Source: an uncultured Methylophaga sp. | Lineage (GTDB): Bacteria > Pseudomonadota > Gammaproteobacteria > Nitrosococcales > Methylophagaceae | Assembly (NCBI GenBank): GCA_913055695.1 | Contig: CAJXKF010000001.1 | Span: forward strand, 142,354 to 206,353 | Length of the DNA: 64,000 nucleotides | Direction of reading: 5' to 3' | Part shown: piece after piece, positions 14,953 through 56,667 of the stretch | Layout of the letters: each line of letters opens with the position of its first letter | Numbering within the stretch: the stretch's first letter is position 1 | Notes under the pieces: model-generated | Told to the model about the DNA's origin: nothing | The model's database searches: none | The model's input: only the letters and a program-made list of their open reading frames with translations | Made by a program: the position numbers and the translations under genes

Positions 14953-16704
14953 CTAGGGTAAGGCCCAGACCCTCAACGCATCGCCGCCTTTGAAACCAAA
15001 CAGTTTATTGCCGCCAGCCACAACCGCGACATACTGTTTACCGTCAACCTGATAAGTAATCGGTGGTGCATTGACACCGGCTTCGGTCGGCGCCGACCAC
15101 AATTTCTTGCCGCTTTCTGCATCAAGTGCAAACAACTCGCCGCTGCCTTCCCCACTGAAGACAAGCCCGCTGGCAGTACTCAGTACACCGCCGAGCAAGG
15201 GGTCGGGTGTTTTGTGCTGCCACACCAGTTCCCCGGTATCAATATTGATAGCACTGAGTAAACCATAACGTTCACCGGTATTGACCGGCGACATGGAGGA
15301 ATACTGCACCCCGGGTTCACCATTTTTGCCTTCGAGCTGGTGCAGGCTGTAGGTGACCGGCCAGTGAATACCTGCAATAAAGACCAGACGGCGTTCAGGA
15401 TCCAGTGATACTGGCGACCAGTTTGAACCGCCCAATACTCCCGGGTAGATCACCGTACCTTCTTTGGAAGGAGATTGGAACATGTTCTGCTGTGGAACAT
15501 AGGCGTCACTTTTGAACAGGAGTTCACCAGTACGACGGTTCAGCACATAAAACCAGCCGGTTTTACCGGCCTGACCGACAGCCGGGATCGATTGACCTTC
15601 ACGTTTGACATCAAACAGCACTGGCGGACTGGCTACATCATAACCCCACATATCATGCGGAACCTGCTGAAAATACCATTTCAATTCACCCGTTGTCGCA
15701 TCAAGCGCAACCAGAGAAGAAGTGTAGAGGTTGTCACCAGGCCGGGAGGAGCCTTCCATCTGAGGTGACGGGTTACCGGTGCCGAAATACAGGGTATCGG
15801 TCTCATGATCGATGGCCGGCGTACTCCAGGCTGAACCACCACCGTAGCGCCAGGCGTCAGCATATTCATCCGCCGCGGCCTTTTCAGCTTCAATATCTCT
15901 GGGCAGTTTTTCGCCGTCCGGTGTGGTTTCTACGAAGTCACCTTCCCATCCTTGTTCGGGAATCGTATCGAATTGCCATTCCTGCTCACCGGTCTCAACA
16001 TCATACGCTGCCAGAAAACCGCGACGGCCGTATTTGCCGGCAATGCCGACAACTGCCCCTAAAGGCGCATTGGGGTCCGGAGAATCAAGATGCAGGCCAT
16101 AGCCGACGCCGGTAATGCCGATAATGACTTTACCCTTGTAGACCATTGGCGCCATATTAAGTCCGGCACCGGAGGTGCCGGAGACTTCGCCCTCGGTATC
16201 CCCCTCCAGAATCGAAATATCCTCACGGATACCACTCTTACCCTTGGTCACATCCTGATCCCATAGTTTGCTGCCTGTTTGCGCATCGAGGGCAATCAGA
16301 CGGCCATCTACTGTGCCCATGAACACTCGTCCCTGTGCGACTGCTACACCACGGTTAGCCGGACCACAGCACATCTTGCGGGTTTCGTCCCAGTCATGCT
16401 GATAGCGCCACAGGCGTTCACCGCTGGCAGCATCAAGGGCAACGACATCGTTGAAAGGCAGAGAGACAAACATCACACCGTTTTTAACAATCGGTGTGGC
16501 CTGAAAAGTGGCTTCAATACCGCTGTGGAACTCCCAAGCAGCTTCAAGCTCAGACACATTGCCGGGCTTAATCTGGGTTAGCGGACTGTGGCGCTGGTGC
16601 ATTTCATTACCACCAAATAAGGGCCACTCTTGCTGTGTATCCACCGAGCAGGCCGAGATGACAATCGCACAGCTCAGCGCTCCCAGAATCTGCCTTAACC
16701 GCAT
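14953..16704 (-). CDS. PQQ-dependent dehydrogenase, lipoprotein
   Basis: 583 residues from the ATG at 16704, chosen because GAGAGG lies 6 nt upstream and a type II signal with lipobox VISAC (Cys19) follows. The mature protein is an eight-bladed quinoprotein propeller: repeated W motifs (GERLWRY, GSKLWDQ, GELKWYF, GELVWQH, GKKLWSA), the vicinal Cys112-Cys113 pair that stacks on PQQ, and FGTGNPSPQ. It should oxidise an alcohol or sugar in the periplasm and feed electrons to the respiratory chain; the substrate cannot be assigned. At the catalytic-base motif, written WDxD in glucose and methanol dehydrogenases, the sequence reads WGYD (353-356), so the first Asp is Gly354. Lys381 in AGKTGWFYVL is conserved. 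No cytochrome domain is present. Confidence 0.9.
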   Translation of the reverse strand: MRLRQILGALSCAIVISACSVDTQQEWPLFGGNEMHQRHSPLTQIKPGNVSELEAAWEFHSGIEATFQATPIVKNGVMFVSLPFNDVVALDAASGERLWRYQHDWDETRKMCCGPANRGVAVAQGRVFMGTVDGRLIALDAQTGSKLWDQDVTKGKSGIREDISILEGDTEGEVSGTSGAGLNMAPMVYKGKVIIGITGVGYGLHLDSPDPNAPLGAVVGIAGKYGRRGFLAAYDVETGEQEWQFDTIPEQGWEGDFVETTPDGEKLPRDIEAEKAAADEYADAWRYGGGSAWSTPAIDHETDTLYFGTGNPSPQMEGSSRPGDNLYTSSLVALDATTGELKWYFQQVPHDMWGYDVASPPVLFDVKREGQSIPAVGQAGKTGWFYVLNRRTGELLFKSDAYVPQQNMFQSPSKEGTVIYPGVLGGSNWSPVSLDPERRLVFIAGIHWPVTYSLHQLEGKNGEPGVQYSSMSPVNTGERYGLLSAINIDTGELVWQHKTPDPLLGGVLSTASGLVFSGEGSGELFALDAESGKKLWSAPTEAGVNAPPITYQVDGKQYVAVVAGGNKLFGFKGGDALRVWALP

Positions 16705-17898: not shown

Positions 17899-18729
17899 TC
17901 AGACTACGTGACGGGCTTTTTGCTGCTGTGGCTCGCTGTCCGGATCATGGTAAACAATATGTCGACCATCACGGGCAAACCCCACCAGCTTCATCCCGAC
18001 TTGCTGAGCCTGCTCGACAGCCAGTGAAGTCGGGGCAGATACTGCGACCAGGCAACCGAAGCCGGCACTGGCACTTTTCTGAACCATTTCATAACTGGCG
18101 CGGCTGGTAACCAGCACAAAACCGTCATTGACGGTGTAGTCTGTTCTGGTGAACGCACCGATCAGTTTATCAAGGGCGTTATGCCGGCCGACATCTTCTC
18201 TGACCAGCAGAATATTACCCTCAAGATCACACCAGGCGGCGGCATGGGTCGCACCGGTGGCCTGTTGCAGCGGCTGGTGCTGATTCACTGAGGCCAGCGC
18301 TTTCTGGATCGCTTGATCACTGACCACCACATTTTGCACCGGTTCGATAGTCCGGATCGCCTGTTTCAGACTTTCTACACCGCACAAACCACAACCGGTA
18401 CGGCCCACCATGTTACGACGGCGTTCACGCAGGGCCTCAAAGCGCTCATCACTGATCTGAAGCCGCACACTGATACCGTTTTTTCCTGATTGCACATGGA
18501 TATGACTGACTTCATCAACATCAGCAATGATGTCCTCAGTCAGACTGAAGCCCAGAGCAAAATCCTGAAGGTCGCTGGGTGTGGCCATCATCACAGCATG
18601 CGAGATGTAGTTGTAGACAAGCGCGACCGGCACTTCAACAGCAATGTCGTCATCTGCCCAGCGGCTGGCGTTTTCAACTTCATGAACCGCGACCGCAAGA
18701 TTGATGGCATTTTTGTCGTAATTACGCAT
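17899..18729 (-). CDS. fdhD: Formate dehydrogenase sulfurtransferase FdhD
   Basis: 276 residues. Visible motifs are EVPVALVYN, ALGFSLTEDII, the sulfur-carrying CGLCG loop (about 122-126), GATHAAAW, VREDVGRHNALDKLIGA and VTSRASYEMVQKSA. FdhD transfers sulfur from a cysteine desulfurase to the molybdenum cofactor of formate dehydrogenase and is essential for its activity. No formate dehydrogenase subunits are in this window, so the enzyme must be encoded elsewhere; in a methylotroph it would complete C1 oxidation. Confidence 0.95.
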   Translation of the reverse strand: MRNYDKNAINLAVAVHEVENASRWADDDIAVEVPVALVYNYISHAVMMATPSDLQDFALGFSLTEDIIADVDEVSHIHVQSGKNGISVRLQISDERFEALRERRRNMVGRTGCGLCGVESLKQAIRTIEPVQNVVVSDQAIQKALASVNQHQPLQQATGATHAAAWCDLEGNILLVREDVGRHNALDKLIGAFTRTDYTVNDGFVLVTSRASYEMVQKSASAGFGCLVAVSAPTSLAVEQAQQVGMKLVGFARDGRHIVYHDPDSEPQQQKARHVV

Positions 18730-19212
18730 TAGTCAGAGACTCAACGAAGCGAAAAGTGATGTGTCGATTAAAACTGTCAAATGCTGCTCTTCATTTGAAT
18801 TTTTGTTTGGCGAGGAGCTACTCATTGAATAGCCGGCCAGACAGGATATCTGATGATAAAAACCAGCATACCAATGGTCATCAATTGTACAGACAACAGG
18901 AACAGCCACTCTATCCCCAAACAGCGCTCACGCTATGTAGTCATTCCTGTTATTGGAGAACAGAGCGAGGTGTCGTCATTGACTAAGGCTGGGGACCAGA
19001 CGTCGCTATTGCCTACTTCATTTCAATTGCAGAGCAATCACGCCTGCCAAGGCCAGACTATTATAATTGATCAAAAAAATCCCCGCATGGTTTAACTATT
19101 TATCCTCAATCGGGCCGGACGGTTTGAAGCTATGCCAAGTCTAACAATGCTGAGCAAGTTCAGATTGCAACGGGAAATTCACCGTTTAATTTAGTGCACA
19201 GCGATATCACGC
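18730..19212. other. Long intergenic stretch upstream of the sRNA unit
   Basis: About 480 bp between fdhD and the NtrC box. Open frames at 18756-18986 and 18853-19095 have no ribosome-binding site and no protein-like composition, so I do not call them. No repeat or RNA family was recognised here. Confidence 0.5.
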
Positions 19213-19229
19213 TGCACTGTTAATGTGCA
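19213..19229 (+). promoter_or_regulatory. NtrC-type enhancer box
   Basis: TGCAC-N7-GTGCA, 17 bp, matches the NtrC operator geometry exactly (TGCAC and GTGCA arms, 7-bp spacer). Its centre is about 97 bp upstream of the predicted sigma54 start, within the range of NtrC enhancers. A single GTGCAC at 19194-19199 may be part of a weaker second site. Confidence 0.65.
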
Positions 19230-19291
19230 TCTTCTTGCAGCTTAGACATATAGAAAATCATAAGACATTGTTTATTATGACTATTTAAAAT

Positions 19292-19306
19292 TGGCATAAC
19301 TGATGC
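19292..19306 (+). promoter_or_regulatory. Sigma54 (-24/-12) promoter
   Basis: TGGCA at the -24 element and TGC at the -12 element, with GG (19293-19294) and GC (19305-19306) separated by exactly 10 bp as sigma54 requires. The predicted start is 19318-19319. Confidence 0.7.
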
Positions 19307-19317
19307 ACAAGCTTAAC

Positions 19318-19409
19318 TACAAACAATTTTTCAGCTGCATGTTGTTTGTAATTTCTCTCTTGTCTACGTGCTGAGCCTTGGGGTGAACTAATGTTCACCC
19401 CTTTTTTTT
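19318..19409 (+). ncRNA. Candidate nitrogen-regulated small RNA
   Basis: The predicted transcript starts 12 nt after the -12 element and ends at the intrinsic terminator, about 90 nt. Its first nine bases, TACAAACAA (19318-19326), pair perfectly with TTGTTTGTA (19342-19350), so the RNA would begin in a closed stem with a 15-nt loop. A pyrimidine-rich single-stranded segment (TTTCTCTCTTGTC) follows, then the terminator hairpin. The only ORF is 11 codons without a ribosome-binding site. The layout (NtrC box, sigma54 promoter, short RNA, terminator) resembles NrsZ and NalA of pseudomonads, but I see no sequence similarity I could vouch for. Targets are unknown. The neighbouring glucosylglycerate genes make a nitrogen link plausible. 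Confidence 0.6.
19380..19409 (+). terminator. Intrinsic terminator of the small RNA
   Basis: Perfect 9-bp stem GGGGTGAAC / GTTCACCCC, loop TAAT, then a run of eight T. It has no upstream protein gene on its strand, which is the first hint of an untranslated transcript. Confidence 0.9.
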
Positions 19410-19474
19410 GCAACTGAATGCCTATGCAGGACTCTGATAGCATAAGAACATGCTGTTTTTTTGATTGAGGGCTT

Positions 19475-20404
19475 ATGCATCAGCACACCATAGAACGCTG
19501 GCAACAGGATCATGACTTTGTCATCGTTAACAAGCGCGGTGAAAAACGCACCCGTTATGTCTTACTGCTGACGGCTGTGACCATGCTGGCAGAGATCATC
19601 GCCGGTCTTGCTTTCGGGTCGATGGCCTTGCTGGCAGACGGCTGGCATATGGCCACTCATGTCGCTGCCTTTCTGATCACGCTATTCGCCTACCACTATG
19701 CGACAAAACACGCCAATAACCCCGCTTTTGCGTTCGGCACAGGCAAGGTCAGTGTGCTGGGTGGCTTCACCAGTGCCGTTGCGCTGGGTGTGGTTGCTGT
19801 GTTGATGGTGTTTGAGTCGGCAGAAAGACTGGTCAATCCTCATGATATTCAGTTAAATGCTGCGATTGCCGTGGCCTTTCTCGGTCTGGGGGTCAACATA
19901 ATCAGCGCTGTACTATTAAAGGACCACCATCATAGTCACGGCGAGCATGAACAGCATCATGATCATAATCTCAAAGCCGCTTATGTGCATGTACTGGCTG
20001 ATGCCTTGACATCCGTGCTGGCTATTGTTGCGCTGATTGCTGCGAAGCTGGCGGGACTGACCTGGCTGGACCCTGTGATGGGTGTGGTTGGGGCATTGAT
20101 TATCACAGCCTGGGCTGTGGGTCTGATTCGTGAAACCAGCCCGATCCTGCTTGATGGCAGTATTGATGCAGATTACCAGCAAGCGATACAGCAGCGTATC
20201 GAACAGGACGCCGATAACCGTATTGCTGATTTTCATATCTGGCATATCAGTCCTCATCATTACGCCGCCATCATCACTATTGTGACCGCTGAGCCTGAAC
20301 CTACGGCCTATTACAAACAACTGCTGGCTGATTTTGAGCGTTTGTCACATATCACGATTGAGGTTCACCGCTGTGAAGATGAGCACTGCCAACATGCCGG
20401 CTAG
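19475..20404 (+). CDS. dmeF: Cation diffusion facilitator, DmeF-like metal exporter
   Basis: 309 residues with six membrane helices. The metal-site residues lie in ALLADGWHMATH (helix 2) and YVHVLADALTS (helix 5). A histidine-rich cytoplasmic loop (DHHHSHGEHEQHHDHN, about 149-164) separates helices 4 and 5, and a C-terminal cytoplasmic domain ends HRCEDEHCQHAG with further ligands. It exports divalent metal ions (Co, Ni, Zn or Cd) by proton antiport across the inner membrane. The N-terminal His-containing stretch and HADAL-type site suggest the DmeF branch; the metal is not certain. It is transcribed alone, 66 nt after the sRNA terminator. Confidence 0.85.
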   Translation: MHQHTIERWQQDHDFVIVNKRGEKRTRYVLLLTAVTMLAEIIAGLAFGSMALLADGWHMATHVAAFLITLFAYHYATKHANNPAFAFGTGKVSVLGGFTSAVALGVVAVLMVFESAERLVNPHDIQLNAAIAVAFLGLGVNIISAVLLKDHHHSHGEHEQHHDHNLKAAYVHVLADALTSVLAIVALIAAKLAGLTWLDPVMGVVGALIITAWAVGLIRETSPILLDGSIDADYQQAIQQRIEQDADNRIADFHIWHISPHHYAAIITIVTAEPEPTAYYKQLLADFERLSHITIEVHRCEDEHCQHAG

Positions 20405-55303: not shown

Positions 55304-56667
55304 TCCAGTTCCAGTTTTTTCAGCTTATATCGCAGCGCGCGGAAAGTAATACCCAGTTTTTTGGCAGCGGCAGTCCGGTTCCAGCGTGTCGCTTCCAGCG
55401 CCTGCATTATGAGCTGTCGCTCCTGATCTTCCAGGCAGGCCTCAAGATCCTGTGGCAATGTTTCGCTGGTCCCGGCAACCATCGCTGGCTGGCTGCTGAC
55501 AGCTGGCTGATGCTCGGGCAGCATCAGATCATCGACTTCAATACTGTCGCCATCAGCCCAGGTCAATGCCCTTTCAAGAATGTTTTCCAGCTCCCGCACA
55601 TTGCCGGGAAAAGTGTAGGATTGCAGTTTTTTCATCGCAGCCTGACTGATAACAGGCTTGCCTGAATGATTCTTTTTCGCCAGCACCGTCAGGATATGTT
55701 CAGCCAGCATCGGAATGTCCGCCTGTCGCTCACGTAGTGGCGGTACTTTGAGTTCAATCACATTAAGGCGGTAAAACAAATCCTCCCGGAAACTGCCATC
55801 ACGGACGCAGACAGACAGGTTTTTATGGGTGGCGGACAGGATACGAACATCAACGTTGACTTCTTCATGCCCGCCAACGGGTCTTACCGCTTTTTCCTGA
55901 ATCGCGCGTAGTAATTTAACCTGCATCATCAGCGGCAGATCAGCGACTTCGTCCAGAAACAGCGTGCCGCCATCAGCGGCCTGAAACAATCCCTGTTTCT
56001 CCGCCACAGCACCGGTAAAGGCGCCCTTTTTGTGACCGAAAAACTCACTTTCCACCAGTTCAGCAGGTATTGCGCCACAGTTAATCGGCACAAATGGGCC
56101 TTCACTGCGCGCGCCCAGCTCATGAATCAGTCTCGCAACCAGTTCTTTACCGGTGCCGGATTCACCGGTGATATAAACCGGTGCCTGACTGCGTGCCAGT
56201 TTGGTGATTTTGCCGCGCAGGGCACGGATAGGATCGGTGTCGCCCAACAGCTTGTCACGCGAGCGGCGCTCTCGCTGCCGGGGCCGTTCCGGTGACAGTT
56301 TCAGTGCTGCTTCCACCAGATCCCGCAGTATTCTCAGCTTGAGCGGTTTGGAGACAAAATCGAAAGCGCCGGATTTAAGCGCCTCAACAGCATGATCGAC
56401 ATTACCGTGCGCGGTGATCACCGCGACGGGGAGTTCCGGGCACTGTTTCTGCAGCGTTTTTACAAAGTCCAGGCCATTACCATCAGGCAGGCGCATATCA
56501 GTAAAACACAAATCGAACTTATGCTGTTTCAAGGCCTGATGCGCCTGGGCCAGATTCTCGGCGGTGACACAGTCAATCGACATGTCCGACAAGGTCATGG
56601 TCAGCAGTTCGAGAATATCCGGCTCGTCATCAATGACCAGCGCCTGTTTTGCTTGTTGCTTCGTCAT
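55300..56667 (-). CDS. pilR: Sigma54-dependent response regulator PilR
   Basis: 455 residues from the ATG at 56667, which overlaps the pilS stop as ATGA. A receiver domain (Asp57 in CFTDMRLP), an AAA+ domain with Walker A GESGTGKE, the sigma54-contacting GAFTGA loop, Walker B GGTLFLDEVAD and NVRELEN, and a Fis-type helix-turn-helix (WNRTAAAKKLGITFRALRYKL) make a complete NtrC-family activator. Cotranscription with a PilS-type kinase identifies PilR, the activator of pilin gene transcription from a sigma54 promoter. Confirms that sigma54 is used in this organism. Confidence 0.93.
   Translation of the reverse strand: MTKQQAKQALVIDDEPDILELLTMTLSDMSIDCVTAENLAQAHQALKQHKFDLCFTDMRLPDGNGLDFVKTLQKQCPELPVAVITAHGNVDHAVEALKSGAFDFVSKPLKLRILRDLVEAALKLSPERPRQRERRSRDKLLGDTDPIRALRGKITKLARSQAPVYITGESGTGKELVARLIHELGARSEGPFVPINCGAIPAELVESEFFGHKKGAFTGAVAEKQGLFQAADGGTLFLDEVADLPLMMQVKLLRAIQEKAVRPVGGHEEVNVDVRILSATHKNLSVCVRDGSFREDLFYRLNVIELKVPPLRERQADIPMLAEHILTVLAKKNHSGKPVISQAAMKKLQSYTFPGNVRELENILERALTWADGDSIEVDDLMLPEHQPAVSSQPAMVAGTSETLPQDLEACLEDQERQLIMQALEATRWNRTAAAKKLGITFRALRYKLKKLELD

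Follow-up and report, generated by a model that had tools for sequence, protein, structure and literature searches.

Does the intergenic region at positions 19213-19409 (+), situated between fdhD and a DmeF-type transporter gene of an uncultured Methylophaga species, harbor a gene for a small RNA that answers to the nitrogen supply of the cell? An earlier note on this DNA had suggested so, and it based its proposal on an NtrC box, a sigma54 promoter, a stem at the predicted transcription start and an intrinsic terminator, all placed in a region without a convincing open reading frame. We refer to the whole stretch of DNA that was analysed (64,000 nucleotides) as the window. Our comparisons of this sequence with those of related genomes lead us to consider it likely, with a probability of roughly 0.85, that the locus represents an independent sRNA gene driven by NtrC and sigma54. 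The features on which the following analysis draws are:

17899-18729 (-): fdhD, the divergently oriented upstream neighbor (TIGR00129, 228 bits, cut-off 141)
19194-19198 (+): an extra GTGCA half-site, 19 bp before the NtrC box and absent from the earlier note
19213-19229 (+): the NtrC-type enhancer box TGCAC-TGTTAAT-GTGCA (TGCACTGTTAATGTGCA), an exact TGCAC-N7-GTGCA match
19291-19306 (+): the sigma54 promoter TTGGCATAACTGATGC (GG-N10-GC; GG at 19293-19294, GC at 19305-19306, 10 bases between them)
19319-19409 (+): the predicted sRNA of about 91 nt, its start being set by the spacing from the GC element
19319-19349 (+): a 5' stem-loop, ACAAACAA (19319-19326) with TTGTTTGT (19342-19349), present in the close lineage only
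19354-19374 (+): the most conserved, pyrimidine-rich segment UCUCUCUUGUCUACGUGCUGA, the proposed base-pairing region
19380-19409 (+): the intrinsic terminator GGGGTGAAC-TAAT-GTTCACCCC plus T8 (hairpin 19380-19401, T8 19402-19409)
19475-20404 (+): the downstream neighbor, encoding a DmeF-type CDF Co/Ni efflux transporter (NF033827, 379 bits, cut-off 250) and beginning 65 bp past the T-run

TGCAC-N7-GTGCA is the textbook consensus for NtrC. The exact box is the sole match of this kind in the window (0.13 expected; at least one match in 12 of 100 shuffles) and one of three exact palindromic NtrC sites in the 2.6 Mb genome. The promoter begins 79 bp on from the box; its pattern TGGCAY-N6-TGCA also matches the window only once, which taken alone is not rare (0.62 expected). 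A box followed by a promoter at a gap of 50-80 bp was found once in the window and in none of 100 shuffles of it. Hence, both elements, as well as the statement of the earlier note that they are lined up, withstood scrutiny.

BLASTN recovered the locus in 17 of 24 Methylophaga genomes (E 3.1e-4 or better), and a covariance model yielded strong homologues in 20 of the 24 (E 7.8e-11 or better), with matches in 15 of the 17 genus genomes of good quality. No copy was found with the covariance model in genomes G007, G021, G018, and G011 of this set; G018 and G011 are 82% and 68% complete, respectively, and two of the four genomes are of good quality, so that the genus as a whole does not depend on this RNA. 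The 20 primary copies comprise 12 close (L001-L012) and eight remote ones, and two genomes (G012 and G019) each possess a second, tandem copy (L089 and L090) about 270 bp downstream, equipped with a sigma54 element of its own and altered in the segment that follows UCUCUCUCGUC.

A correctly placed TGGCAY-N6-TGC element is present in all 20 primary copies, which bears out the claimed GG-N10-GC promoter beyond the window. An NtrC-type box is found 77-81 bp upstream of this promoter in each of the 12 close copies; nine of these boxes are exact, two contain one mismatch and one contains two. Eleven of the 12 close copies, that of the window included, additionally carry GTGCA (10 copies) or GTGCG (one copy) at positions -98 to -100 relative to the promoter, a half-site that is missing in L010. 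Among the eight remote copies, four show a box with a single mismatch at 100 bp and three show one with two mismatches at 100-122 bp, the latter a match equalled in 10-20 of 500 shuffles; the three-mismatch box of L014 is no better than chance (100 of 500 shuffles).

Outside of the genus, three genomes from another genus of the family offer traces of the locus: promoter and one-mismatch box at 81 bp in G031, a GG-N10-GC element discernible by eye with no box within 150 bp in G078, and, in G030, a copy whose -12 element has decayed. When 369 genomes of the class were searched with the covariance model under strict filters and with 11 candidates scored per genome, a setting in which weak relatives could be missed, nothing strong was detected beyond the own genome of the window; three other genomes matched at E 0.0085-0.0098. 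A scan for the core pattern in one genome per species gave 20 matches, 14 of which are accompanied by a promoter and a T-run (13 in Methylophaga and one in a gammaproteobacterial MAG). The remaining six (in Tractidigestivibacter, two Olsenella, Psychromicrobium, a myxobacterial MAG, judged on 24 upstream bases only, and a Henriciella MAG) exhibit neither sigma54 element nor T-run and look like chance. In another family of the order (G037, L124), a sigma54-like promoter precedes CUCUCUCUUG and a terminator, and only half an NtrC box can be recognized there by eye; L124 may be a distant relative or else an RNA in its own right.

Folding of the window RNA (as 19317-19410) gave -26.6 kcal/mol, whereas shuffles averaged -13.8 (z -4.8), and none of 200 shuffles was as low. 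The terminator described in the earlier note, a hairpin at 19380-19401 followed by eight T, is retained in all 16 aligned copies and covaries among the relatives: changes on both sides of a pair occur in 18 cells vs. 6.5 in shuffles, and the covariation score is 0.217 vs. 0.092 in shuffles, values that none of 500 shuffles attained in either case. All of these both-side changes fall within the terminator, where five of the nine pairs have at least one, a pair count that 31 of 500 shuffles match. When the helix partners were slid against each other, pairing dropped from 95% to 57% or less (both helices taken together).

The 5' stem fared differently from the terminator. It can indeed be formed from the predicted start in the window sequence, but it is lineage-specific: of 15 distinct rows, 10 can form it, most of its pairs are gapped in the other five, and not a single change on both sides was found among the 15. 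An alternative UUCAGY/GCUGAG helix is nearly invariant, also with no change on both sides. Since the 5' stem hardly varies or is missing, and since the alternative helix is near-invariant, neither is supported by covariation; the covariation that the earlier note had looked to in relatives is therefore a property of the terminator and not of the 5' stem. Absent from the remote copies, the 5' stem was rejected as a family-defining element. Instead of this stem, which the earlier note had listed among its four signals, the pyrimidine-rich sequence UCUCUCUYG...CURCGUGCUGAG is the best-conserved part of the RNA. The centroid fold of the window RNA leaves it unpaired, and UCUCUCUYG stays in a loop in the folds of several other copies.

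Which activator protein would serve this promoter? The genome that contains the window possesses glnA, ntrB, ntrC, rpoN, and hfq, with ntrC assigned by its position after ntrB and by its activator domain. However, eight full-length sigma54-activator domains are present among 13 matches in this genome, so that another enhancer-binding protein recognizing GTGCA might switch the sRNA in response to a signal other than nitrogen. The altered box geometry of the remote copies would fit such a regulator, as would the absence of any recognized nitrogen gene near the remaining two exact boxes. Against this stand, besides the agreement with the textbook consensus for NtrC, a one-mismatch box upstream of ntrB (with no sigma54 element matching the pattern used) and one-mismatch boxes that are followed after 93 and 99 bp by sigma54 elements and belong to a gene cluster for a molybdopterin oxidoreductase, an ANTAR protein and an ABC transporter with its NMT1-like binding protein. 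Judged from these protein families, the cluster probably serves nitrate assimilation; it also contains two further boxes that no sigma54 element follows. When up to one mismatch is allowed, the genome contains 42 NtrC boxes vs. 20 for the reversed control, so that about half of them are attributable to chance. All told, we consider NtrC the most probable activator of the sRNA and control by a different enhancer-binding protein unlikely. One of the sigma54-activator domains is encoded inside the window itself, at 55750-56247 (-), corresponding to C1:198103-198600 of the genome.

The gene arrangement in the window could also suggest that the RNA serves dmeF as a conditional 5' leader (attenuator) and is no free sRNA at all, since in 11 of the 12 close copies a co-directional CDF gene begins 62-69 bp past the T-run. 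Yet the RNA persists in L010, whose CDF gene is found on the opposite side, and in L013-L017, where none was seen downstream, and its terminator is kept throughout the alignment. The upstream neighbor likewise differs among genomes, being fdhD, a formate-dehydrogenase gamma-like gene, or others (gene identities outside the window were read from sequence). Gene order in other genomes thus makes a dmeF leader very unlikely, and the persistence of the RNA next to varying neighbors counts for an independent sRNA gene.

A small peptide, finally, is scarcely credible as the product of the locus and was rejected because its 11-codon ATG...TGA frame (19339-19374; MLFVISLLSTC in the window genome), although open in the window copy and five close relatives (L002-L005, L010) and represented by a shorter in-frame variant in L013, is not conserved: the ATG is in frame with the stop in seven of the 20 copies, out of frame in seven and absent from six, despite strong conservation of the RNA sequence. 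The absence of a convincing ORF claimed in the earlier note was thereby confirmed, and what the relatives preserve is a covarying terminator rather than a reading frame. Collectively, a promoter present in every primary copy, an NtrC-type box at a fixed distance in every close copy, the behavior of terminator and frame, and the boxes with sigma54 elements in the putative nitrate cluster support the reading as a non-coding RNA driven by NtrC and sigma54.

Several sRNAs with a connection to NtrC or with a comparable mode of action have been described, and we compare them here with the window RNA on the basis of excerpts from the literature. NrsZ of Pseudomonas aeruginosa depends on NtrB/C and RpoN and is induced by nitrogen limitation; this processed RNA measures at least 226 nt, contains ACAGGCAG and has its gene beside ntrC (PMC9308961). 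It thus resembles the window RNA in the NtrC/RpoN-type control that we predict from the sequence of the latter, but differs from this RNA of about 91 nt in size and in location: the sRNA between fdhD and dmeF maps to C1:161.7 kb, and ntrC is positioned near C1:288 kb. The NrsZ motif ACAGGCAG matches the window seven times and never inside 19319-19409; these seven matches (2.1 expected) are all on the (-) strand, the first of them at 16271-16278. GlnZ of the Enterobacteriaceae, an sRNA under NtrC-sigma54 control in nitrogen limitation (PMC9731577), is cut from the 3' UTR of glnA, whereas the window RNA has a promoter of its own.

MmgR of Sinorhizobium meliloti (suhB, RF00519) is described as a short sRNA that is positively regulated by NtrC. 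The tandem copies of G012 and G019 bear some likeness to this family (35.5 and 33.5 bits), but the gathering score of 41 bits was not reached in any of the 24 loci scanned; the window copy gave no suhB match, and L003 (26 bits) was the only primary copy among the matches listed. A search of Rfam 15 at the gathering score returned two tRNAs only in the window, and the loci of the relatives produced sub-threshold matches only. EsrF of E. coli O157 provides an example of an sRNA that is repressed by NtrC. The view expressed in the earlier note that the few described sRNAs of this kind come from pseudomonads does not hold in the light of MmgR and GlnZ (PMC9731577). Among the matches listed in a survey of titles and abstract beginnings of the Methylophaga literature, no nitrogen-controlled sRNA of this genus appeared, and the accessible part of one Methylophaga transcriptome paper treats sRNAs in general terms only. 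The window RNA represents a new family, while NtrC-controlled sRNAs as a class are already known.

How might such an RNA act? From the sequence we infer that the sRNA is transcribed, is induced in a nitrogen-dependent manner with NtrC as the activator, and binds Hfq; the two features expected of an Hfq-dependent sRNA, an hfq gene in the genome and a 3' terminator with a U-run, are both present. At low nitrogen, phosphorylated NtrC would bind the box at 19213-19229 and activate sigma54-RNA polymerase at 19291-19306, and this would yield a transcript of about 91 nt ending at 19402-19409. The UCUCUCUYG segment would then, probably with Hfq as the platform, pair with purine-rich ribosome-binding sites in several mRNAs and lower their translation. 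Being pyrimidine-rich and unpaired, this segment is suited to such an interaction, and we rate an anti-ribosome-binding-site mechanism as somewhat better than an even bet. NcS25 of Burkholderia cenocepacia, an 84-nt RNA that uses a single-stranded segment to pair with the Shine-Dalgarno sequence in the mRNA of an outer-membrane protein (PMC10117139), serves as the model for the proposed mechanism; in contrast to the window RNA with its sigma54 promoter, NcS25 is presented in the excerpt of this source as constitutive and without a sigma54 motif (PMC10117139).

Putative target sites of the type CRAGAGAG before an ATG outnumber those of the reversed control hardly or not at all in the window genome (20 vs. 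18) and in one of three other genomes (11 vs. 13), and clearly in the other two (38 vs. 11; 21 vs. 10). Reading of 20 stretches around chosen sites and of 30 loci from a search brought up one orthologous target pair, a gene for a TonB-dependent receptor (L164:541 onward; C3:310940 in the own genome of the window) whose ribosome-binding site contains, there and in some of the close genomes, a 10-nt complement of the RNA. In the 12 close genomes, this ribosome-binding site reads CRAGAGAG in six and AAAGAGAG in three, with a shorter match in G006; no complement was found in G005 and G002, nor in any of the 11 further genomes that possess the gene. By duplex energy, for which all genomes were scored with the segment of the window RNA and 45 genes formed the window background, the receptor would rank about sixth of 46 and does not stand out. 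Because shared descent accounts for the match as readily as selection and the energy is not outstanding, we treat the mRNA of the TonB-dependent receptor as a weak lead for a target of the sRNA.

Methylotrophs must balance their one-carbon metabolism against the supply of nitrogen. A conserved and apparently nitrogen-controlled sRNA offers an entry point to the post-transcriptional layer of nitrogen control in Methylophaga, and it constitutes a candidate Rfam family. A second, sibling RNA, which consists of the core UUCAGCUUCUAUAGUCUUAUAUUUCUCUCUCCUUC plus a terminator, is located at G000:C7:153066-153151 (-) (L091), at L085-L088 and L095, and at many loci of another genus. The core UUCAGCU...UUUCUCUCU is common to the nitrogen RNA and its sibling. 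Tentatively, and with rather less than even odds, the nitrogen RNA might be one arm, duplicated in tandem in two species, of a network of sibling sRNAs with a shared core; in that case, nitrogen status and a further two-component signal would converge, by virtue of this core, on overlapping ribosome-binding sites of mRNAs. Among the sibling loci, the sigma54 pattern matched L218 only, with an 11-base gap, and L085 attained a sub-threshold 30.7 of the 50 bits of RF02278. The sibling RNA at L091 follows a gene for a response regulator of the UvrY/NarL type, and the sequence upstream of other sibling loci reads like the end of the same regulator gene, with a differing context at L092 and L093.
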